This document shows, one piece after another, positions 11,422-24,677 of a stretch of DNA of 64,000 nucleotides (its first letter is position 1; each line of letters starts with the position of its first letter). Under the pieces are notes generated by a model that worked only from the letters and a program-made list of their open reading frames with translations, was not told where the DNA came from and did not search any database. The position numbers were made by a program, and so were the translations under genes. Source of the stretch: Methylovulum sp. (GTDB lineage: Bacteria; Pseudomonadota; Gammaproteobacteria; Methylococcales; Methylomonadaceae). Where the stretch lies: NCBI GenBank assembly GCA_030653435.1, contig JAURZI010000063.1, positions 1 to 64,000 of the forward strand, read 5' to 3'.

Positions 11422-12018
11422 TTCAACATCTGCCATCCGCATAGTGATTTTGTTGGCCAATTATGCAGCAGACTATCTCCGGTTTACGGTTGTTATGCTT
11501 TATGTACGCATTGCGTATCTAAAGGGCCTAACTATGGCCGATCAGAGCATAGCTGCGGCATTCCGGTATTAGTCCAGCCCCTGAGCCTCGCCGGGTCGAC
11601 CAACACCACCAAGGCTTGTTCCTGCATACGCCATAGCACGATGACTTTTGTGCCTATGAAGAATCTTCTCCTCATGAATACTCAAATCTTCATAAAGAAT
11701 CTTCTATTGATAGCTTGTCCCGCTTAATGTATCTTCGTGCCCAGGACGTCAACCGCCAGATCCGTTTCAACACTTGCCTATGCCGCCAAGATCCCCGGTT
11801 TTTCGGTGTTTCTGACCTTGCCTTGTCGAATTAACAACAACGCTAGGTGATCGGCAATCTTCTTTCGTCGTCCTGATGGCATGCCTATAAATATCGCAAT
11901 TATTTTACTGCCGCCCACCTGTCGGGGAAGGCGGAACCCTGCGGTAACAACCTGAAAAGTTGCGAAACAGACAATTTTCCAATCATACTGGATGTTAAAG
12001 CATCCAAAGGATATAAAA
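11422..12018. other. Intergenic region with no supportable gene
   Basis: About 600 bp lie upstream of the second sulfatase. Short frames occur on both strands. A minus-strand stretch near 11575-11645 reads VIVLWRMQEQALVVLVDPARLRGW, which looks protein-like but has stops nearby, so it may be a decayed gene. AAAGGA at 12006-12011 is the ribosome site of the next gene. Confidence 0.4.
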
Positions 12019-14217
12019 ATGCTACGCGATGACAAAAAACACGCACAAGGGCTAGCGGCTGCGGCGAGAGGGGAAGACGCCCGGAACAACTTACGGAAAT
12101 GGTGGGGCGGCATGTTGGCTGTTGCCTGTGTCTGTGTTGCCGCTAATGTCCCGGCGGCGGTTAAACCCAATATCCTGTTCATCGTCATGGACGATATCGG
12201 CGTAGACCAGATGAAAGTGTTTGGCTACGGCGGCGCTACGCCTGCGAACACGCCGAATATCGATGCAGTCGCCCATGCCGGTGTCCGCTTCGGCAATGCC
12301 TGGACGATGCCGACCTGTTCGCCTAGCCGCGCGACTTTTTTCCAGGGACGTTACCCGTTCCGCACCCATGTCTTTAACGCCATCGTCTCGCTGGATTTGG
12401 CCAACTCGCAGGTATCGCCTTTTGAGACTACAACGCCGAAAATTTTAAAACGGCAAGGTTACCGCAATGGCGTTTTCGGAAAAATGCACTTGTCCGGCTC
12501 AGACCTTAATCCCGCCAACAACCCGTTGGGCGATCAAGTCATGCACGATTTGGGCTGGGATTATTTTACCGGTTACCTGGACGGCGGGCCTTATCCTATC
12601 GATACGACGGCGGGCGGGGTCGGCGCGGCTGGAACCTACCAATGCGGGTTTGTAGCAAATAAAACCGATGATCCCGGCAATGGCGCTGATACCGGCGCTT
12701 GTTACCGGGCTGACGATAGCTGTGGAGAAATATCGACGGCTACCGCCGCGACGCCGGGGCGGGCCTGTCTGGAAAAAGGCGGGATTTTTGTGCCCAATCA
12801 GGCTTGCCAGTCGCCGCGTCCCGACAATCTCGATTTTAGCAAACAAAACGGCTATTACACGGGCTCATGGGTGATTAATAACAAGAATGGTGCAACGCAA
12901 ACCCTGCCCGCATCCAGTGTTAAAACTCGTGGTTACCGGACTGTTCTGGAAACCGATCTGGCGGTGGACTGGATAAAAAAACAGCCTGTTGACCAACCCT
13001 GGATGACCAGCGTTGGTTATTCAGCCGCCCATACGCCATTACAGCCGCCACCGATGGCATTATTGCCTGCGGGTTCCACGCAGACGGGGGCTTATAATTG
13101 CACCGACACTAGGCAAAATCGTATCCTGACCAACCAGACCATAGAAGCGATGGATCATGAAATCGGCCGTTTGTTGGTCGAGACCGGCATCGCCGGTTAT
13201 AAAGCCGACGGTAGCCTGGATTATCAGCCTGAGAGCAGCAACACTGTCGTTATTATCGTCGGCGACAACGGCACTTATGCGCCCAGCGTCAAAGCACCGT
13301 TCAATCCGCAGCGATCCAAGGGCTTCCCTTACCAGACCGGAGTCTGGGTACCGCTGATTGTCGCAGGACCGATGGTTAACACGCCCGACCGCACCGTCAC
13401 GCACATGGTCAATTCAGTGGATTTGTTCCAGTTGTTTGGTGAGTTGGCGGGTGTCAATGTCCATGATGTCGTGCCCAAATCGCATACCTTGGATGCCAAG
13501 GCTATGCTGCCGTACTTGCTGACAACGGATGCAAAAAGCATACGCACGACCAATTACACCGAAATGGGCGCCAATATTGCTACTGCAGGGGTCGCCCCGC
13601 CGCCTTGTGTGATTCCGGCGGTCAATAGCTGTGTGCAGGTTTTTCCGCAAAAAGGGGTTTGTGAGGATCAGGGCGGTGTCTGGTATGGCGCTAACGGTGT
13701 TGCCGGTACGGAAGGCTTAAGTTCATGCTGCGCCGTCAACGATTACCTCAAGGCTAACGGCCAGCCGGAAGTCCAGTTATTGGCCAGCTCGCAGAAAGCC
13801 ATACGCAATAATAATTTTAAGCTCGTGCAGCTGGCCCGTTTCAATTGTGAAACCAACCAGACGGATACGGTTAACGAGTTTTACCGTATCAACGAAGCGG
13901 TGCCGGTACCCAAGCTGGACAATGCCAACGCCGAGTTGTTGCAACAGCCGCAGTTGACGCCGGTACAGCAGCGTAATTACCAATCTTTATTGGCGGAACT
14001 TGAGGGTTTGCAAAATACTGCGGTCAGCTGTCCTGGTGACGGCAACCTGGATTTGGTCGTCAACAACAAGGATCTCGAAAACTGGCAAACTTTCAGTACC
14101 TCGAACGGCGGTCATTCCAGTTGGTACGATTTTAACCTTGACGGCCTCACTAACGAAGATGACCGCTTGATTATCGAGCAGAACTTCGGCAAAAAATGTA
14201 AGGCTTCAGGGTTATGA
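12019..14217 (+). CDS. Secreted sulfatase with dockerin-like C-terminal calcium repeats
   Basis: The ATG at 12019 (ribosome site AAAGGA 7-8 nt upstream) gives 732 residues. A hydrophobic export segment (MLAVACVCVAANVPAA) follows a long charged N-terminus. The sulfatase signature is intact: NILFIVMDDIG for metal binding and TCSPSRATFFQGR with Cys100 in CxPSR for formylglycine. GKMHLSG and VGDNGTYAP continue the fold. Cysteine-rich inserts (about 210-265 and 520-570) are unusual. The last 60 residues carry two EF-hand-like loops, PGDGNLDLVVNNKDLENW and DFNLDGLTNEDDRLI, the pattern of type I dockerin calcium repeats, bracketed by cysteines. Such a tail could anchor the enzyme or fold on calcium outside the cell. 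The substrate is unknown. Confidence 0.88.
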   Translation: MLRDDKKHAQGLAAAARGEDARNNLRKWWGGMLAVACVCVAANVPAAVKPNILFIVMDDIGVDQMKVFGYGGATPANTPNIDAVAHAGVRFGNAWTMPTCSPSRATFFQGRYPFRTHVFNAIVSLDLANSQVSPFETTTPKILKRQGYRNGVFGKMHLSGSDLNPANNPLGDQVMHDLGWDYFTGYLDGGPYPIDTTAGGVGAAGTYQCGFVANKTDDPGNGADTGACYRADDSCGEISTATAATPGRACLEKGGIFVPNQACQSPRPDNLDFSKQNGYYTGSWVINNKNGATQTLPASSVKTRGYRTVLETDLAVDWIKKQPVDQPWMTSVGYSAAHTPLQPPPMALLPAGSTQTGAYNCTDTRQNRILTNQTIEAMDHEIGRLLVETGIAGYKADGSLDYQPESSNTVVIIVGDNGTYAPSVKAPFNPQRSKGFPYQTGVWVPLIVAGPMVNTPDRTVTHMVNSVDLFQLFGELAGVNVHDVVPKSHTLDAKAMLPYLLTTDAKSIRTTNYTEMGANIATAGVAPPPCVIPAVNSCVQVFPQKGVCEDQGGVWYGANGVAGTEGLSSCCAVNDYLKANGQPEVQLLASSQKAIRNNNFKLVQLARFNCETNQTDTVNEFYRINEAVPVPKLDNANAELLQQPQLTPVQQRNYQSLLAELEGLQNTAVSCPGDGNLDLVVNNKDLENWQTFSTSNGGHSSWYDFNLDGLTNEDDRLIIEQNFGKKCKASGL

Positions 14218-14391: not shown

Positions 14392-16836
14392 ATGGCTACC
14401 TGGCTAGACACCTGTCAACAACAACTCGCCCGTTTGGAAAAAACTTCAGTATTGGCCGATAAACTGGTGACCTTGTGCAACAAAACCGAAGTCGATATTG
14501 CGCCTGAATTAGTGCAAAAACTCAATGCCGAGCATCCGCGCTTAAACCAGCAATTGGAGCGTTTACGCGCCAACCGTTTTGAGGTTGCCGTGATCGGTCT
14601 GGAAAAAGCGGGTAAAAGCGCCTTGCTGAATGCGTGGTTGGGCCAGGAAATCCTGCCTTCGGCGCGGGAGCGCTGTACCTTCACCAGCACCGAAATCTGG
14701 TCGGCGCAAACGGAGCAGGACCAATCGCTGTCTATCCAATATTACAGTAAGGAAGAAATCAGCAAACTGCAGCATCAGCGTCGTGATGCTCTCGCCAGCG
14801 CCCTGCTGAGCGACAAGGAGAAAAAAGAAATCCAGGAAGATTACGAGGATACCGAAAAAAACCTGTCGGCGATCTACGAATTTTCGCGGCAAAAAAACGG
14901 TTTCACGCAAGCCTTCATCGACATCAGCGAAATCAACGAACATCTGCAATCGGCGATTTTTAAAAACCGCGCCCAGTCGTTGGCGATCAAACGCATCCAG
15001 CTCAAGACCGTGCGCTTGCGTAGCGACCGGGACATTATTTTCCATGATGTGCCGGGTTTTAATTCCGGCATACTGATGCACGCCGAACAGGCGATAGATC
15101 GGTTAAAAAACTGCGACGCAATCATCTACGCCAAGGAAATGAAGCAGCCCTCGATCACCGGCCCGGAAAAAGACATGCTGCTGGTCGCGGATGCCGAAGA
15201 TCCCAGCATCCGCGTATCGGACAAGATCTTTGTCGTGCTGACCCAAGCCGATGCCTTGGATGACCAGATCGACTTTAAGGACACTTACGAGAAGCACAAG
15301 AATTACTGGCCAACCGTACCAGAACGGCGCTTGATTCCGGTTTGCGCCCGTTCGCATCTGGTCGAGTTCGGCATCCCGTCGGAAGATACGCTCAGGCGCT
15401 CCAAAAGCGCTGACGATAAACTCAAGTTGAAAAAAATCGGCATTACCGACGGCATGCCGTTATTAAAAGACGCGGTCAATTTTTACATCGACCATGAACG
15501 TGCCGAGGTATTAAAAAAGCGCTGTGATGCACTGGTTGGCAATATGCGCCATTATGCCGGTGAAATTCTGATGAAGCTGGAGCCTATCTACGGCAGTACC
15601 GTGATCAGCGAGAGCCAGGAAGACGATTTGTTGGGCAAGGAATTCAACCAATGGTGGGGCCGTGAATGGCAACGCATCAAGAAAGATTTCGATGTCTGGT
15701 ATGCGGAAAGCATACAGGGACGCAAAGAAGCCGATGCCCTGGGCGCGGAACACGAAGAGCTGGCGGCCCTGCATGCGGCTTACGACCAAAAAATAGAATT
15801 GTTGCTGACGCATTTGAGCACGGCGCAGCCGGAGGAGTTAAAACGGATTTATACCGCCGGCGGCACGATGTCGATGCCGGATGCGCGTGAAGGCAATTAC
15901 AAAATTCGCGAAGAGTTGTTTCGGGAGATCCAGCAAAAATTTGAAACCGAGATGACCGACCAATTAGCCCAGGCTTTGCAGGCGTTGATCGACCAAATTG
16001 TCAACAAAACTCAGGAATTATTGTGGGATACCGAGGATGTGCGTAAAAACCTGCTGCATTCGCATATTGACGAAGGCATAGAGCAGGCGCGTATCCGCCA
16101 CGGTTTTCAGGTGTTATTTTTGCGCTTTGGCCGCGTTGCCGTCGAAGTGTTCATCGCCAAGCCCTTGCAGGCGCGGGAACGCTTATTGAACGAGCGCGCC
16201 GCCGAAATCAAGACCTTGGAAGCGTTTTATCAGGGCATGGATAAGGAGAAATTCCAACAGGAAGGTCGTTTAACCCATTATTTGCGCTATGGTTTATGGG
16301 AAAAAGCCCTTGGCGGCATCCCGGCGCTGGTCGGCAAAACCGCCAGGGCCGCCGTTAAAGCCGCGAATACCCAAGATATGGCCGAAGTGGCTGCCGCCGA
16401 AGTCGCGGCAACGGCGAGCCGGAGCAGCCGGACGGCTAAGGCGGTTATTATCCAAGACGTGCAGGATGCGGTCGGCATGGTTAAAAAAGATCCGGACGAG
16501 TCGGTGAAATACGTGGAACCCGTCAATTTCGAACAAGTAGTCGAAGAAATTAATGGCGATTTGGCGGCGTTGCAGGATTATTTAAAGAACAGCGTGTTTT
16601 ATGCCGCCGGGTTTATTACCTATTGCAACCAGGAACTGGAGCGTATCCGCAACCGCTTTAAGGAAATGGAAGATAATGAACGCCAATGGATAGGGCTGAT
16701 ACGCACCGCGGTAAAATACGAACGCAACCCTAAAATCCCTTATAACATCGCCCATTCCAAACGTGATTTCCGCATGCGTAGAGAGATTGCGCGTGAGATC
16801 AAAGAAGTTCGGGAAAGTTATGGACAGGTGCATTAA
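14392..16836 (+). CDS. Dynamin-like GTPase
   Basis: The protein has 814 residues. The G1 P-loop is GLEKAGKS (69-76). Thr residues in CTFTSTE (about 93-99) fit the switch I region. DVPGF (about 219) is G3. VVLTQAD (about 280) is a variant G4. Long helical stretches follow (EKKEIQEDYEDTEKN, EELAALHAAYDQK), as in the stalk of dynamin-family proteins, with a possible amphipathic or hydrophobic paddle near VLFLRFGRVAVEVFIAKP (about 575-595). Bacterial dynamin-like proteins remodel or protect membranes, and some act in phage defence. No partner GTPase or other defence gene is adjacent, so the role here is unknown. Confidence 0.8.
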   Translation: MATWLDTCQQQLARLEKTSVLADKLVTLCNKTEVDIAPELVQKLNAEHPRLNQQLERLRANRFEVAVIGLEKAGKSALLNAWLGQEILPSARERCTFTSTEIWSAQTEQDQSLSIQYYSKEEISKLQHQRRDALASALLSDKEKKEIQEDYEDTEKNLSAIYEFSRQKNGFTQAFIDISEINEHLQSAIFKNRAQSLAIKRIQLKTVRLRSDRDIIFHDVPGFNSGILMHAEQAIDRLKNCDAIIYAKEMKQPSITGPEKDMLLVADAEDPSIRVSDKIFVVLTQADALDDQIDFKDTYEKHKNYWPTVPERRLIPVCARSHLVEFGIPSEDTLRRSKSADDKLKLKKIGITDGMPLLKDAVNFYIDHERAEVLKKRCDALVGNMRHYAGEILMKLEPIYGSTVISESQEDDLLGKEFNQWWGREWQRIKKDFDVWYAESIQGRKEADALGAEHEELAALHAAYDQKIELLLTHLSTAQPEELKRIYTAGGTMSMPDAREGNYKIREELFREIQQKFETEMTDQLAQALQALIDQIVNKTQELLWDTEDVRKNLLHSHIDEGIEQARIRHGFQVLFLRFGRVAVEVFIAKPLQARERLLNERAAEIKTLEAFYQGMDKEKFQQEGRLTHYLRYGLWEKALGGIPALVGKTARAAVKAANTQDMAEVAAAEVAATASRSSRTAKAVIIQDVQDAVGMVKKDPDESVKYVEPVNFEQVVEEINGDLAALQDYLKNSVFYAAGFITYCNQELERIRNRFKEMEDNERQWIGLIRTAVKYERNPKIPYNIAHSKRDFRMRREIAREIKEVRESYGQVH

Positions 16837-17238: not shown

Positions 17239-20200
17239 ATGCAAGACGCAATTGATTTTCTATTCGGTACTGAAGGCATGATGCCGCACGGCTATTGTTT
17301 TCTATGGAACCCTTCCTTGCTATGGCTGTTGGTCATATCAAATTCAGTGACGGCGCTGTCTTATTTTTCCATTCCTTTGGCCTTAGGCTTTTTTGCTTAC
17401 AAACGCAAAGACATTAATTTTAAATGGATGCTGCTATTATTCAGTGTCTTTATTTTTGCCTGCGGTATCACACATGTCTTATCGGTCGTCACTATCTGGA
17501 CCCCGGTCTACGGTTTGAATGGCTTGGCCGAGGCCTTTACGGCGCTAGTCTCGGTGGCAACTGCGGTGCTGTTATGGCCGCTGATCCCCAAAGCTTTACG
17601 GATCCCCAGCCCGTCCAGTTTAATGCGGGCGAATGCCCGGCTTGAAGAAGAGATCCTTTACCATAAAGCCACCAAGGCGCAATTAAGCCAGCTCAACACG
17701 GAATTGGACAGGCTGGTTGACGTTAGAACCCAGGAATTGCAGGCGAGTGAGTTCCGCTGGAAATATGCCATCGAAGGCTCCGGTGACGGTCTTTGGGACT
17801 GGAATATGATTGACAGCACGGTATTTTTTACGAAGCGCTGGAAGGAAATGCTCGGCTTTAGCGAAGATGAGATCGGCAATGGCCTGGAGGAATGGGAACA
17901 GCGCATCCACGCTGAGGATAAGGCGCGCACCTTCGCTATCGTACAGGATTATCTCGACGGCAAGATCCCGGTTTATGTTTGCGAACACCGTGTCCGCTGC
18001 AAAGATGGCGGTTATAAATGGATCCTCGACCGCGGCATCGTCGTTAGCCGTAGCGAGGACGGCAAGCCCTTGCGGATGATCGGTACGCATACCGACATCA
18101 CCGAGCGCAAGTTGGCGGAACAAAAAAACCAACAACTGGGCAATATCCTCGAACAGTCGATCAATGAAATTTATATCATCAACAGTAAAACGCTAAAGTT
18201 TGAACATGTTAACCAGGGGGCAATCAGCAACTTGGGTTATAGTCTGGACGAGCTTAAGCACATGACGCCGACAGACATTAAGCCAGAGCTGGAACTTGGA
18301 GTATTCAGGGATCTTATCAAGCCGTTATTGGCCGGCGAACAAAACCAATTAAGGTTTGACGCTATCCATCAGCGCAAAGATGGCACACGTTATCCGGTTG
18401 AGGTCTGCTTGCAAATATATCACAACGACCCCGATTACCTGGTCACGATCTGCCTGGATATTAGCCAGCGTAAAGAGATGGAACGCAGCTTGGTGGATGA
18501 ACGTAATTTATTGTCCAATTTGATTGATAACATTCCCGACCATATTTTTTATAAAAATACCGCAGGCGAGTATGTGATGTGCAATAAAACCGTCTCTAGC
18601 CATTTTGAGGAATCCGTTGGAAGCATCATAGGCCGTAATGATTTTGATCTTTTTGCCCCGGAATTGGCCCGGCTTTTCAGGCGGCAGGATGCTGATTTGC
18701 TCGCCCAGGACCAAGCTTGCGTCAACAAGGAGACAATCAGCTTTCCTAATGGCAAACAGGCTGTGTTGGAAACCTTCAAAACGCCACTTAAAGATAGTGA
18801 TGGCAACGTATTGGGCTTGATCGGCATCAGTCGTGATGTTACCCAGCGTAAAGCGCATGAAGAAAAAATCAGCCGCCTGAGCAATTTCTACGCCTGTCTG
18901 AGTAAAATTAACCATGCCATAGTGCATATCAATAACCAGAAAGAATTGTTTGCTACCGTGTGTGCGGTCACAGCCAGCCTGCAGCATGTCAAACTGGCCT
19001 GGATTGGTCAGCCTGACCCCTTATCGCGTTTCCTTATTCCTGTCTCTGTCGCGGGTGAAACCCAGGAATATCTGACGGGCCTAGTCGTTTCGGTTGACCC
19101 TGACGTACCGGAAGGTCGAGGCTCTATGGGTATTGCCTATCGTGAAAACCGCATTGTAACCGTCAATGATTTTCAGGCCGAGGTCGGCACAACGCCCTTA
19201 CGCGCAGAAGCCGACAGCCGTGTTGTTTGGGGGGCGAGTTGCTCCGTTCCCATTTTGCTAAATCAGCAGCCTTATGCGGTGCTTAATGTGTACAGCAACG
19301 AAAAAGATTTTTTTGACGCGGCAGTGCTGAATTTAATGGCAGAGTTAAGCCGTGACTTATCATTCGCGCTGGATTCTTATGCCCATGAGGCGGCGCGCCG
19401 TTTTGCCGAAGAGCAACTGGAGCTATCCGCCAAGGTGTTTCGTCAAAGCCACGAAGCCATTATCATCACCGACAAAGACAATAACATCGTGTCGGTCAAC
19501 CGGGCGTTCACCAACATCACCGGCTATCAGGAACAAGAGGTCATAGGCAAAAAACCGAAGATTCTGTCCGCAGGTCGGCAGGATAGGGAATTCTACCGTG
19601 TGTTGTGGGACGCCCTGCTTAAAAACAATTTTTGGCAAGGCGAACTATGGAACCGGCATAAAAACGGCACGGTTTACCCTGAATGGTTAACCATTAGCGT
19701 GGTGCGCGATGAAGCCAACGAGATCGTCCATTATATAGCGACATTCACCGACATTACGCTGCATAAGGCGGCGGAACAAAAGATTGAACATTTGGCCCAT
19801 TACGACGTATTGACCAATCTGCCTAATCGTCTCTTGCTCAAATCGCGGGTGGATTATGAATTGATTGTCGCGGAACGCTATGAAAAAACCTTTGCCTTGT
19901 TATTCATTGATTTGGATCACTTTAAAAACATCAATGATTCTTTGGGGCATTCCATCGGCGACCAGGTGCTGGTGGCTGTGGCTGAGCGCTTGCTTGCCTG
20001 CGTCCGTGAAGAAGATACCGTGGCGCGCTTGGGCGGTGATGAATTTAATATCCTGCTCGCTGACGGCAATGGGAATGCGGCGGCCCTGGTCGCCAACAAA
20101 GTGATAACGGCATTGAGCGCGCCCATTCTTTACCAACAGTATCAGTTGTACATCACCGCGTCGATAGGCATAGGCATTTATCCCGACAATGGCGATAGTT

Positions 20201-21096
20201 ATGAGACCTTGTCTAAAAATGCAGACACGGCGTTATATCAAGCTAAAAAACACGGGCGCAACCAATATCAGTTTTTTACCCCGACCATGCAGCAACAGTC
20301 CGAAAGGCGCATGCAAATTGAGCATGATTTAAGGCATGCCATAGCCCGCAATGAGTTGCTGGTTTATTTCCAACCCCAGGTGAACACGCAAACCGGGCAA
20401 ATTAATGGCGCAGAAGCGTTGCTGCGCTGGCAACACCCGGTTTGGGGCATGGTTTCGCCAGTTGAATTTATACCGGTGGCCGAGGAGTGCGGTTTAATCT
20501 TGCCTATAGGGGAGTGGGTGCTGGATCAGGCCGTCGCCGAAGCGCGGCAATGGCATGACGCTGGCTTTCCGCTAACGGTAGCCGTTAATTTGTCCCTGGC
20601 GCAATTTAGGGCCAATACCTTGTTTGGAAAAGTGCAGCAAACGCTGGAGCGTCATCAGATGCCGGCGCAATACCTGGAACTGGAACTGACTGAAAGCATC
20701 GCCATGCAGAATGCCGTGTTGGCGATAGAGATCACTGAGCAATTGTCCAGGCTCGGCATTAAACTGTCGATTGATGATTTTGGCACCGGCTATTCATCAC
20801 TGAGTTATCTGCAACGCTTTTCATTGCACAAGCTCAAGATAGACCAATCTTTCACGAGAAGCATGGTCGGCAACAAGGACAGTGAAAATATCGTTGACGC
20901 GATCATTAGCCTGGCAAAAAGCCTAAATTTAAAAACCATTGCGGAAGGGGTTGAAACCAAACAGCAACTGGCATTATTCCGGCAAAAAGCGTGTGATGAA
21001 ATCCAGGGCTATTACTTCAGCAAACCCATTCCTGCCGTTGAGTTTGTAGCCTTGATGAAGCGAGGCCTGGATGCTGGTTTAAGCGATAGCGGTTAA
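17239..21096 (+). CDS. Ethylene receptor-like sensor fused to PAS, GAF, GGDEF and EAL domains
   Basis: The protein has 1285 residues. The N-terminus (about 20-120) has three membrane helices closely matching the ethylene-binding domain of plant ETR1: SYFSIPLALGF (cf. AYFSIPLEL in ETR1) and ACGITH, giving Cys75 and His79 in the C-x-x-x-H copper site. The position of ETR1 Asp25 is Asn35 here. Next come a coiled coil (130-165), three PAS domains (about 170-535, each ending in a D-I-T/S-x-R-K type PAC), a GAF domain (545-690), a fourth PAS (705-830), GGDEF (835-1000) with intact GGDEF and an RxxD inhibitory site (REED), and EAL (1020-1275) with GAEALLRW, ELTES, IDDFGTGYSSL and AEGVET. Both cyclase and phosphodiesterase motifs look intact, so it could make or break c-di-GMP. 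Ethylene sensing is inference. Confidence 0.9.
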   Translation: MQDAIDFLFGTEGMMPHGYCFLWNPSLLWLLVISNSVTALSYFSIPLALGFFAYKRKDINFKWMLLLFSVFIFACGITHVLSVVTIWTPVYGLNGLAEAFTALVSVATAVLLWPLIPKALRIPSPSSLMRANARLEEEILYHKATKAQLSQLNTELDRLVDVRTQELQASEFRWKYAIEGSGDGLWDWNMIDSTVFFTKRWKEMLGFSEDEIGNGLEEWEQRIHAEDKARTFAIVQDYLDGKIPVYVCEHRVRCKDGGYKWILDRGIVVSRSEDGKPLRMIGTHTDITERKLAEQKNQQLGNILEQSINEIYIINSKTLKFEHVNQGAISNLGYSLDELKHMTPTDIKPELELGVFRDLIKPLLAGEQNQLRFDAIHQRKDGTRYPVEVCLQIYHNDPDYLVTICLDISQRKEMERSLVDERNLLSNLIDNIPDHIFYKNTAGEYVMCNKTVSSHFEESVGSIIGRNDFDLFAPELARLFRRQDADLLAQDQACVNKETISFPNGKQAVLETFKTPLKDSDGNVLGLIGISRDVTQRKAHEEKISRLSNFYACLSKINHAIVHINNQKELFATVCAVTASLQHVKLAWIGQPDPLSRFLIPVSVAGETQEYLTGLVVSVDPDVPEGRGSMGIAYRENRIVTVNDFQAEVGTTPLRAEADSRVVWGASCSVPILLNQQPYAVLNVYSNEKDFFDAAVLNLMAELSRDLSFALDSYAHEAARRFAEEQLELSAKVFRQSHEAIIITDKDNNIVSVNRAFTNITGYQEQEVIGKKPKILSAGRQDREFYRVLWDALLKNNFWQGELWNRHKNGTVYPEWLTISVVRDEANEIVHYIATFTDITLHKAAEQKIEHLAHYDVLTNLPNRLLLKSRVDYELIVAERYEKTFALLFIDLDHFKNINDSLGHSIGDQVLVAVAERLLACVREEDTVARLGGDEFNILLADGNGNAAALVANKVITALSAPILYQQYQLYITASIGIGIYPDNGDSYETLSKNADTALYQAKKHGRNQYQFFTPTMQQQSERRMQIEHDLRHAIARNELLVYFQPQVNTQTGQINGAEALLRWQHPVWGMVSPVEFIPVAEECGLILPIGEWVLDQAVAEARQWHDAGFPLTVAVNLSLAQFRANTLFGKVQQTLERHQMPAQYLELELTESIAMQNAVLAIEITEQLSRLGIKLSIDDFGTGYSSLSYLQRFSLHKLKIDQSFTRSMVGNKDSENIVDAIISLAKSLNLKTIAEGVETKQQLALFRQKACDEIQGYYFSKPIPAVEFVALMKRGLDAGLSDSG

Positions 21097-21111: not shown

Positions 21112-21165
21112 TAGGCTACCGGTGCTGGTATCTGGGAGAGCTTCAGACCTTAAGCCGGTAGCCTA
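21112..21165. terminator. 11-bp inverted repeat between convergent genes
   Basis: TAGGCTACCGG (21112-21122) and CCGGTAGCCTA (21155-21165) are a perfect inverted pair. The second arm overlaps the 3' end of kdpE. The loop is about 32 nt and no T-run is obvious, so termination between the convergent genes is only possible. Confidence 0.3.
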
Positions 21166-21838
21166 TGCCCGATTCCGTCAGCAAATACTGCGGCTGGGTC
21201 GGGTCGGTTTCCAATTTTTGCCTGAGCTGGCTCATGTAAATCCGCAGATAATGCGAATTATCCCGATAAGACGGCCCCCATACTTCCTTGAGCAGGTATT
21301 GGTGCGTCAACACCTTGCCGGCGTTTTTCACCAGCACCGAGAACAACCGGTACTGGATAGGCGTCAGGTGGATGTCACGGTCGCCTACCCTGATCTGGCG
21401 CTTCATTAAATCGACATGCAGCGCACCGGTAGTGAACACGCCGTCCTGATCCTGCGCCGGACTGCTGACTGAATGGCGTAGCGCCACGCGGATCCGGGCC
21501 AGCAGTTCGCCCAGACCGAACGGCTTGGTCAGATAATCATCCGCCCCCGCATCCAGGGCGTCTATTTTATGCTGTTCGGTGCTGCGGGCGGACAAAATAA
21601 TGATCGGCATCGCCGACCATGCGCGTATGTTTTTGATGACGTCCACGCCGTCCATATCAGGTAATCCCAGATCAAGGATGATGAGGTCGGGTTTGCGTAC
21701 ACCGGCTTCGACGAGGCCTTGCCGTCCGCGATCAGCTTCATACACTTTGAAGTCATGGGCGCTAAGGCCGGTGCGCAAAAACAGGCGTATCGCCGGGTCA
21801 TCTTCGATCACCACAATTACAGGGCTAGTCTGGGCCAT
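21143..21838 (-). CDS. kdpE: KdpE response regulator
   Basis: The protein has 231 residues. An OmpR-type receiver (VVIEDDPAIR; phospho-acceptor Asp in ILDLGLPDMDG; LTKPFG) is followed by a winged-helix DNA-binding domain (LTPIQYRLFSVLVKNAGKVLTH ... YMSQLRQKLE ... GIGYRL). This closely follows KdpE. In E. coli, KdpE activates kdpFABC when KdpD phosphorylates it. It lies downstream of kdpD on the same strand with a 112-nt gap holding a REP-like hairpin. The kdpFABC genes lie about 6.5 kb away on the same strand. Confidence 0.93.
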   Translation of the reverse strand: MAQTSPVIVVIEDDPAIRLFLRTGLSAHDFKVYEADRGRQGLVEAGVRKPDLIILDLGLPDMDGVDVIKNIRAWSAMPIIILSARSTEQHKIDALDAGADDYLTKPFGLGELLARIRVALRHSVSSPAQDQDGVFTTGALHVDLMKRQIRVGDRDIHLTPIQYRLFSVLVKNAGKVLTHQYLLKEVWGPSYRDNSHYLRIYMSQLRQKLETDPTQPQYLLTESGIGYRLKV

Positions 21839-21890
21839 GGCCGTCCATCAATGGGGTTGCGTGAATGTCGTCCTCTGCGCTTAAAATCGT

Positions 21891-21924
21891 CTTCGTAGGG
21901 CGTGCCCGGCGCGCCCTACGAAGA
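21891..21924. repeat. REP-like hairpin, short form of family 1
   Basis: CTTCGTAGGGCGTGCC and GGCGCGCCCTACGAAG pair over 15 of 16 positions around a very short loop. It lies between kdpD and kdpE and could affect transcript level of kdpE. Confidence 0.75.
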
Positions 21925-21950
21925 AAAGAAAAACAGGAGTATGGCTGTTA

Positions 21951-24677
21951 TTACTCATCCATCATCGGCGGCGCATGGGTCAGCGGGATGGTGAACGAAA
22001 AGGCCGCGCCGCCCGTCTTCCGGTTTTGCGCCTGGATGCTCCCGCCATGCGCTACAACAATGGCTTTGCAAATAGCCAAACCTAAGCCCACCCCGCTTTG
22101 GGTCGCTTCGGGCTGGACACGGTAAAATTTTTCAAACAACTTACGTTCAAAGCCTGCCGGAATGCCCGGCCCCTGGTCGGCCACCGTGATATCCACGGCA
22201 GCGGTAGACGCTTCCGCGCTGATGGTCAACGCGCTGCCTTCCGGCGTGTAACGCAAGGCATTTTCCAATAGGTTGACCAACACTTGTTCGATCATCACGG
22301 CGTCTACATACACCATCGTCATGCCATCCGGCAATTTAACACTTACCGGACGGCCTGCCAGACGTTTTTGCAAGCGCGTCAACACGACGCCGACAATTTC
22401 GTCCAGCGGATACCATTGTCTGTTCAATTCCACCGCACCCGCATCCAGACGGGCCATATCCAGAATATTATTGACCAAGTTCGACATCCGTTGCGCTTCA
22501 TCGTAAATGGCGCGGCTTAGTTCAAGCTTGTCGGCCTCCTTGAGGTTTTGGGCTTCCTCCACTAAGGTGCTGGACGAGCCGACGATAGTTGCGAGCGGCG
22601 TACGCAAATCGTGGGAAATGGAACTGAGCAGCGAATTACGTAGGCGTTCGGCTTCCATTTCCACCTGGACTTTTCGGGCTTGCTCGGTCAGGCGCACACG
22701 GGTAATCGCCTGGGCAATCTGTCCGAGAAAAGTCTCCAGTAACTTCTGTTGTTCGGGCAGGAACACCCTGCGCAAATTAACCGGCAGTAAAACCAGCACC
22801 CCCAGCGTAGTCTCTTTATTGCTGAGTGGAAAATAAATGGCTTCTGCACCCGGCAAGGTGTTAGTGCCTTGGCCTGCGATTTCGTTATGGTCCATGACCC
22901 ATTGCGCCACGCTGAGGTCTGCTGCATGCAGGGATTCCGGCATATCCGGCCCCTGCGGATAACTGATGCGCCCATTGGCGTCGGGAAAAAGAATGACATT
23001 CCGGCTGCCGAATTCCGAATAAAGATGATGCACGGCGGTGCGGACGATGTCATGTTCGCTCTGGCTGGCGGTCAGATCCTTGCTCATCGCGTACAGCACC
23101 GTCGCACGCCGCTCCCTATGCCCAGCCACCTTGGCCTGGGAACGCACATTGGCCATCAGGTTGCTGATTAACATCGCCACGGTTAACATCGCCAGCAGCG
23201 TCACCAGATATTGGCTATCGGACACCGAAAAACTGAAATAAGGGGTCACGAAGAACAGGTCGAATATCGCCACGCCAAGGAAAGAGGCCAAGATGGATGG
23301 GCCGCGACCGAAACGCGTGGCAATAAAAACCACGCCCAGCAAAAACACCATAATCAAATTAGCCAACTCAAACCGGCCGAACATCAGATAAGACAGGATC
23401 GTGCTGGCGATAGTCACCGCCACGGCCCAGACATAGCCTTTTATAGTCTTATTGCGTGATCCCGGTTTGCCGCTAAGCCCAGGCAACGGTTTTTTTCGGT
23501 ACAGGGACGGCTCGGCTTTATTAGCGTTCTTGTCGGGTCTGGGGCTGCCCAACAGATAGAGGTTGATGTTATGGGCATCGCTAATCAGCATGTCCACGAC
23601 CGAGCCCAGCAACAAACGTTTCCAGCCCCGGCGGGTCGGTTTGCCCATGACGATCTTGGTGACATTCCGTTCATTGGCCAGCTTGATGATGGCGGCGCTC
23701 ATATCGGGCGCACTCAAGGTCACGGTTTCGGCGCCCAACTGCTCGGCTAGCCGCAAAATACGCAACACGCCATCGCGTTGCTCCGCCGACAAGCGTTGCA
23801 GTTCCGGCGTTTCCACATATACGACCAGCCATTCGGCCCGCAGGCTGTTGGCGAAGCGCTTACCGGCGCGGACCAGCCGTTCGGACAAGCCGTTCGGGCC
23901 TATGCACACCATAATGCGCTCACTGACTTGCCAGACTTCGCGAATAAAATGATTGTCGCGGTAGTCCAGCATCTGGGCATCGACACGGTTGGCGGTTTGC
24001 CGCAACGCCATTTCCCGCAGGGCGATCAGATTACCCTTGCGGAAAAAGTGTTTGACGGCTTCCTGCGCCTGTTGCGGCAAGTAAACCTTGCCGTCTTTAA
24101 GCCTGGCCAGCAGTTCGTCGGGCGGCAAGTCCACCAGTTCGAGTTCGTTGGCCTGTTCAAACACGGTATCCGGCACGGTTTCCCAAACCCGTATGCCGGA
24201 AATCTGGCTGATGTCGTCATTGAGGCTCTCCAGGTGCTGTACATTGAGCGCCGTATAGACATCAATACCGGCATCCAGCAGTTCTTCGATGTCCTGCCAA
24301 CGCTTGGGGTGCCTGCAACCCTGGGCATTCGTGTGCGCCAGTTCATCGACGAGGATGATTGAAGGTTTGCGCTTGAGCGCCGCATCCAGGTCGAACTCAT
24401 GCAATACCGTGCCCCGGTATTCAATTTGCCTGGTCGGCAATATGTCCAGCCCTTCCAGCAACGATGCTGTATCCTTGCGCCCATGCGTTTCCACCAGGCC
24501 AACGACAATGTCTATATTTTCCGCCCGTTTTTCCCGGGCGGCCAGCAACATCGCGTAAGTCTTGCCGACGCCGGCCGCCGCGCCAAAAAAAATCTTCAGC
24601 CGTCCACGGCTGGCGAGGCTTTGGTCGCGCTCGACGCGGGCTAGTAATTCGTCTGGGTCGGGGCGCTCATTGTGCAC
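21951..24677 (-). CDS. kdpD: KdpD osmosensitive K+ channel histidine kinase
   Basis: The protein has 908 residues from a GTG start at 24677; the nearby ATG is out of frame. The N-terminal KdpD domain has the P-loop GAAAGVGKT (32-40) and VDELAHTNAQG. A UspA-like domain follows (RIMVCIGPN, IVMGKPTRRGWKRLL at about 330-350), then four close membrane helices (about 400-500), a GAF-like region, and the histidine kinase core with SSISHDLRTPLATIVGSS (H-box), N-box LLENALRYTPEG and DQGPGIP/GVGLGLAICK. It senses low K+ or turgor and phosphorylates KdpE. The gene order NhaD-kdpD-kdpE on one strand suggests shared control of cation uptake and efflux. Confidence 0.95.
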   Translation of the reverse strand: MHNERPDPDELLARVERDQSLASRGRLKIFFGAAAGVGKTYAMLLAAREKRAENIDIVVGLVETHGRKDTASLLEGLDILPTRQIEYRGTVLHEFDLDAALKRKPSIILVDELAHTNAQGCRHPKRWQDIEELLDAGIDVYTALNVQHLESLNDDISQISGIRVWETVPDTVFEQANELELVDLPPDELLARLKDGKVYLPQQAQEAVKHFFRKGNLIALREMALRQTANRVDAQMLDYRDNHFIREVWQVSERIMVCIGPNGLSERLVRAGKRFANSLRAEWLVVYVETPELQRLSAEQRDGVLRILRLAEQLGAETVTLSAPDMSAAIIKLANERNVTKIVMGKPTRRGWKRLLLGSVVDMLISDAHNINLYLLGSPRPDKNANKAEPSLYRKKPLPGLSGKPGSRNKTIKGYVWAVAVTIASTILSYLMFGRFELANLIMVFLLGVVFIATRFGRGPSILASFLGVAIFDLFFVTPYFSFSVSDSQYLVTLLAMLTVAMLISNLMANVRSQAKVAGHRERRATVLYAMSKDLTASQSEHDIVRTAVHHLYSEFGSRNVILFPDANGRISYPQGPDMPESLHAADLSVAQWVMDHNEIAGQGTNTLPGAEAIYFPLSNKETTLGVLVLLPVNLRRVFLPEQQKLLETFLGQIAQAITRVRLTEQARKVQVEMEAERLRNSLLSSISHDLRTPLATIVGSSSTLVEEAQNLKEADKLELSRAIYDEAQRMSNLVNNILDMARLDAGAVELNRQWYPLDEIVGVVLTRLQKRLAGRPVSVKLPDGMTMVYVDAVMIEQVLVNLLENALRYTPEGSALTISAEASTAAVDITVADQGPGIPAGFERKLFEKFYRVQPEATQSGVGLGLAICKAIVVAHGGSIQAQNRKTGGAAFSFTIPLTHAPPMMDE

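Follow-up and report, generated by a model that had tools for sequence, protein, structure and literature searches.

The window, by which we mean the whole 64,000-nucleotide stretch of Methylovulum sp. contig JAURZI010000063.1 that was analysed, carries at 17239-21096 on the forward strand an open reading frame that begins with ATG and encodes a multidomain protein, laid out as follows.

17239..21096 (+): open reading frame, 1285 aa, in the order ETR1_N, PAS repeats, GAF, PAS, GGDEF, EAL (ORF and Pfam scan)
17317..17604 (+): ETR1_N, ethylene-receptor-like membrane domain, residues 27-122 (Pfam PF25487, E 1.7e-35)
17341..17343 (+): Asn35, helix 1, in place of Asp at the ETR1 Asp25 position (alignment)
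17461..17463 (+): Cys75, at the ETR1 Cys65 copper-ligand position, invariant in 58 relatives (alignment)
17473..17475 (+): His79, at the ETR1 His69 copper-ligand position, invariant in 58 relatives (alignment)
17530..17532 (+): Glu98, helix 3, in place of Lys at the ETR1 Lys91 position, swap partner of Asn35 (alignment, 25-91 coupling)
17821..18090 (+): PAS fold, PAS_3, residues 195-284 (Pfam)
about residues 300-420: further PAS (Pfam)
18526..18852 (+): PAS fold, PAS_4, residues 430-538 (Pfam)
18940..19374 (+): GAF domain, residues 568-712 (Pfam)
19453..19758 (+): PAS domain, residues 739-840 (Pfam)
19795..20265 (+): GGDEF diguanylate cyclase domain, residues 853-1009, with GGDEF and the inhibitory-site RxxD (REEDTVARLGGDEF) intact (Pfam, motif scan)
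20326..21027 (+): EAL phosphodiesterase domain, residues 1030-1263, with EALLRW, VNLS, LELTE, DDFGTG, LKID and EGVE intact (Pfam, motif scan)

The membrane domain scores 121.6 bits against the ETR1_N profile, for which the Pfam cut-off is 27, and an AlphaFold2 model built from 58 aligned sequences places it in three helices (residues 25-55, 62-87 and 91-112) at a mean pLDDT of 89. A sequence search of the PDB returned no solved structure resembling this domain, and a fold search of the PDB with the model gave zero matches at E 0.001. At the other end of the protein the output is GGDEF-EAL only, with no histidine kinase or kinase-like domain found by Pfam, and since the GGDEF motif, the RxxD site and every EAL motif that was checked were found intact, the protein would be expected to act as an enzyme with both c-di-GMP activities. 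The host genome contains one match to the AMO/pmoA family (E 1.4e-130), its nearest relatives by name are Methylococcaceae, Methylobacter and Methylovulum, and the window gene and the pmoA-family gene lie on separate contigs (C37 and C143). Around the open reading frame we also see a KdpE-like response regulator and KdpD-like sensor kinase on its 3' side, on the opposite strand (21143-24677, -), and, upstream, a dynamin-like GTPase (14392-16836) and a sulfatase (11992-14217), none of which has an apparent connection to the ETR1_N finding.

The residues of the putative ethylene site were read by alignment to Arabidopsis ETR1. The numbering that results agrees with the published ETR1-AzoEtr1 pairs D25=D35, C65=C75, H69=H79 and K91=K98 (PMC11819568). 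ETR1 positions 25, 32, 35, 36, 62, 65 and 69 fall on N35, Y42, I45, P46, I72, C75 and H79 of the window protein, which therefore retains six of the seven ethylene-binding residues, the exception being Asn35 for Asp25; the region around position 91 aligns free of gaps. The initial annotation had described an ETR1-like ethylene-binding domain with the copper-site Cys75 and His79, Asn35 at the Asp25 position and a GGDEF-EAL output in place of a kinase, in a methanotroph, and in all these respects our analysis agrees with it. It had also taken Asn35 to be a change that might weaken or alter binding; the residue is as described, but the picture of a single change is incomplete, for Glu98 at the Lys91 position had been overlooked. 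The tie that it proposed between a putative alkene or ethylene ligand and methane monooxygenase would be a candidate role.

In ETR1, Asp25 is grouped with Cys65 and His69 in the copper site (PMC12643061) and is thought to position His69, with a modelled bridge to Lys91 of helix 3, a residue itself involved in receptor output (PMC11819568; PMC13012798). The D25A mutation abolishes binding (PMC11819568; PMC13012798), whereas the D25N receptor still works, its affinity reduced about 100-fold, and earlier mention has been made of natural variation at the site (PMC13012798). The outputs of bacterial ETR1_N proteins are likewise known to be varied (PMC7700396). The existence of Asn variants, the Asp-Lys bridge (as a model) and the diversity of bacterial outputs are thus already known, and the interesting part is the coupled swap described below; in the literature searched we found no report of a paired 25/91 change or of ethylene receptors in methanotrophs, and priority is not established. 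Work on ethylene perception is still concerned with how Asp25 contributes to high-affinity binding and how Lys91 relays the signal.

The residues at these two positions were surveyed across ETR1_N domains drawn from 70 loci in a scan of genome contigs and from whole-genome Pfam searches of further samples: the host's own genome, phylum and family, the phylum and class of an Obscuribacterales genome, and the phyla of one Phycisphaerales, one Verrucomicrobiales and one Geobacteraceae genome. Removal of duplicates left 379 aligned domains, 34 of which have lost Cys65 or His69 and 345 of which keep both. Among the intact domains the 25/91 pair is D/K in 252, N/D in 31, D/R in 11, N/E in 8, E/K in 7, D/N in 5, G/K in 4, and N/K, N/R and H/L in 3 each, with others rarer still. 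Asn variants at Asp25 reportedly exist (Azhar et al. 2023), and as to how common they are, a question raised with the initial annotation, Asn occupies position 25 in 51/345 of these domains. An acid stands at position 91 in 39/345, and every one of the 39 has Asn25; among the 283 domains in which position 25 is Asp or Glu, position 91 is never acidic (Fisher p 2.8e-25 for the association, computed on the first 280 domains and ignoring kinship). The acid is not obligatory, since 12/51 Asn25 domains are without it, and a base is kept at 91 in 6/51.

The same association emerges when relatedness among the sequences is taken into account. Mean-field direct coupling with sequence weighting places 25-91 above all others among 3925 column pairs (z 10.6, and z 11.3 on a larger set), and mutual information with background correction places it fifth. 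By direct coupling it is still first when either the methanotroph or the other main Asn/acid group is removed (z 8.4 and 8.7), and falls to rank 12 (z 4.7) when both are removed. Judged from these alignments, positions 25 and 91 are certainly a coupled pair; the 39 of 39, the 0 of 283 and the top coupling together indicate that Asn35 is one half of a coordinated swap, from Asp/Lys to Asn with Asp or Glu. The history of the swap was followed on trees computed without columns 25 and 91, which leave about 100 columns and most forks unresolved. The Asn/acid label requires six changes on these trees, of which well-supported branches force two, and on the first tree every gain falls on an Asn25 lineage. 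A single Asn/acid clade is not formally rejected (AU test, p-AU 0.068), and supported pairs were too few for an independent-pair test. From the trees, several origins of the swap are likely but not proven.

The Asn/acid class to which the window protein belongs is a minority among the surveyed domains. It accounts for 7 distinct domains in the sample of the host's own family, for one domain in the wider cyanobacterial phylum sample, and for 16/20 domains in the sample drawn from the class of the Obscuribacterales genome, where it is the main form. A tie between the swap and methanotrophy was considered and rejected on this last count. A tie to the output domain was rejected as well: a motif scan finds the Asn/acid pair with both histidine kinase and GGDEF-EAL outputs, so the swap is a feature of the sensor rather than of the output.

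The host genome itself holds four ETR1_N proteins besides that of the window (Pfam):

L334, 2473-5058 (-)
L334, 7595-11143 (-)
L335, 2592-5096 (-)
L336, 3814-7632 (+)

All five end in GGDEF-EAL, with 0 histidine kinases among them, and by their 25/91 types two are Asp/Lys, two Asn/Glu and one decayed. The decayed copy, at L336, is 64% identical to the window protein over its entire length, and has Asn at 25, Gln at 91 and Gln replacing the copper His; to judge by these residues it combines a sensor that has decayed with a GGDEF-EAL enzyme that is still intact. Decay therefore does occur in the window protein's subfamily, as does loss of a copper ligand in the 34/379 domains noted above, and one might suppose that the window protein too is worn out, its membrane part a mere anchor and its PAS and GAF domains the ones that sense. 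We regard this as very unlikely, given that Cys75, His79, Tyr42, Ile45, Pro46 and Ile72 are all retained, and that the Asn35/Glu98 pair is itself conserved in orthologs 83-70% identical to the window protein.

Overall, we put at about one in two the probability that the window protein is a sensor of the ethylene-receptor family in which a coordinated swap of two residues has re-wired the predicted copper site, and which controls c-di-GMP. Its most likely role, as far as residues and motifs can indicate, would be to sense small alkenes in a Cu(I)-dependent manner, through a site whose chemistry is altered. In canonical receptors the carboxylate sits on helix 1, as Asp25 bridged to Lys91; here it would have moved to helix 3, as Glu98, facing the Asn of helix 1. 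On the simplest reading Asn35 and Glu98 would still pair across the helices, now as amide and acid, while Cys75 and His79 would still bind Cu(I), and the copper in turn a small pi-ligand such as ethylene. The swap would then keep the copper site usable and alter its charge and its pull on helix 3. Consider a cell in which such a ligand arrives at the copper: the altered polar pair, which would tune affinity, might transmit movement to helix 3 and from there to the PAS/GAF linker, and this linker could shift the balance between GGDEF, where c-di-GMP is made, and EAL, where it is broken, in one direction or the other. The natural physiology to expect would be biofilm, as for an ethylene-binding relative with the canonical pair (PMC11819568).

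By analogy, the ETR1 mutants count against this explanation, D25A through its lack of binding and D25N through its lowered affinity. The Asn25 domains that lack an acid at 91 (12/51), and the single origin that the AU test does not reject, weigh on the same side. One could equally argue from D25N, and from the natural variants noted before, that Asn at 25 simply makes the window protein a weaker ethylene receptor, one tuned to high ethylene near pMMO. That account, which we hold to be unlikely, leaves Glu98 aside, and a base at 91, rare among natural Asn25 domains, is what the D25N mutant keeps: the mutant shares Asn25 with the window protein but retains Lys91 (PMC13012798), which the natural class loses. 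Because Asn35 comes with Glu98, and the double change is a family-wide rule, the published affinity of a single D25N mutant is not directly transferable. Since paired residues near the copper site have been swapped together, the window protein, on the evidence of its family, need not be simply a weakened receptor. A related possibility, doubtful in our view and yet worth stating, is that Asn25 with acid at 91 would mark a separate functional class with a changed copper environment, responding to a non-ethylene ligand or working by a different switch through the acid in helix 3, and reached more than once by paired change.

Retention of the copper ligands, combined with alteration of the residue tied to ethylene affinity, might also suggest that the protein senses Cu(I) itself, or a copper pi-ligand other than ethylene such as CO, acetylene or propene. 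Methanotrophs need copper for pMMO, and ETR1_N is enriched in the host's own methanotroph family, being carried by 73/121 genomes, with up to six copies, as against 33/397 in the phylum sample. Nevertheless, we consider this quite improbable. The class does not track methane oxidation, because Asn/acid is the main form (16/20) in the cyanobacterial-side class related to Obscuribacterales; two canonical Asp/Lys copies reside in the same genome; and an ORF and Pfam scan of the window found no copper gene adjoining the open reading frame. The scan found no adjoining alkene-metabolism gene either, and no gene neighbours are conserved across the ortholog loci.

The re-wired small-alkene sensor that we favour can be set beside receptors already described. 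Like ETR1 and the plant receptors, the window protein has a three-helix membrane domain, Cys and His as copper ligands, and the Tyr, Ile, Pro and Ile of the site; unlike them it has Asn for Asp25, Glu for Lys91 and a GGDEF-EAL output without a kinase. AzoEtr1 of Azospirillum brasilense is, like the window protein, a bacterial ETR1_N protein with residue numbering 35, 75, 79 and 98, and it is a receptor that alters biofilm; it differs in having Asp35/Lys98, a histidine kinase output and an adjoining response regulator, and it binds ethylene with high affinity (PMC11819568), whereas ethylene is a putative ligand of the window protein. SynEtr1 (slr1212) and GeiEtr1/2 of cyanobacteria are further bacterial ETR1_N proteins, which affect biofilm and motility; in contrast to the window protein, GeiEtr1/2 retain all seven binding residues, and SynEtr1 signals through a kinase (PMC6682694).

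A natural class that replaces the 25/91 pair as a unit amounts to evolutionary proof of coupling, drawn purely from comparing sequences, and its members are ready-made receptors for a direct test of the Asp25/Lys91 pair. The host genome, with its two Asp/Lys, two Asn/Glu and one decayed copy, all on GGDEF-EAL enzymes, lends itself well to a comparison of what the individual copies sense.

Other pairs at 25/91 also occur with Cys and His intact: His/Leu in Methylovulum relatives (L017, L144, L238), Gly/Lys in one genus of the host's family (L219, L221, L233), and Glu/Lys in Rhodocyclales and some methanotrophs (L022, L026, L027, L030, L037, L147, L225). Finally, a canonical ETR1_N gene in a metagenome bin titled Klebsiella pneumoniae (L024, CAMDGF010000004.1) clusters by identity with betaproteobacterial ones, and the title of that bin is probably wrong.
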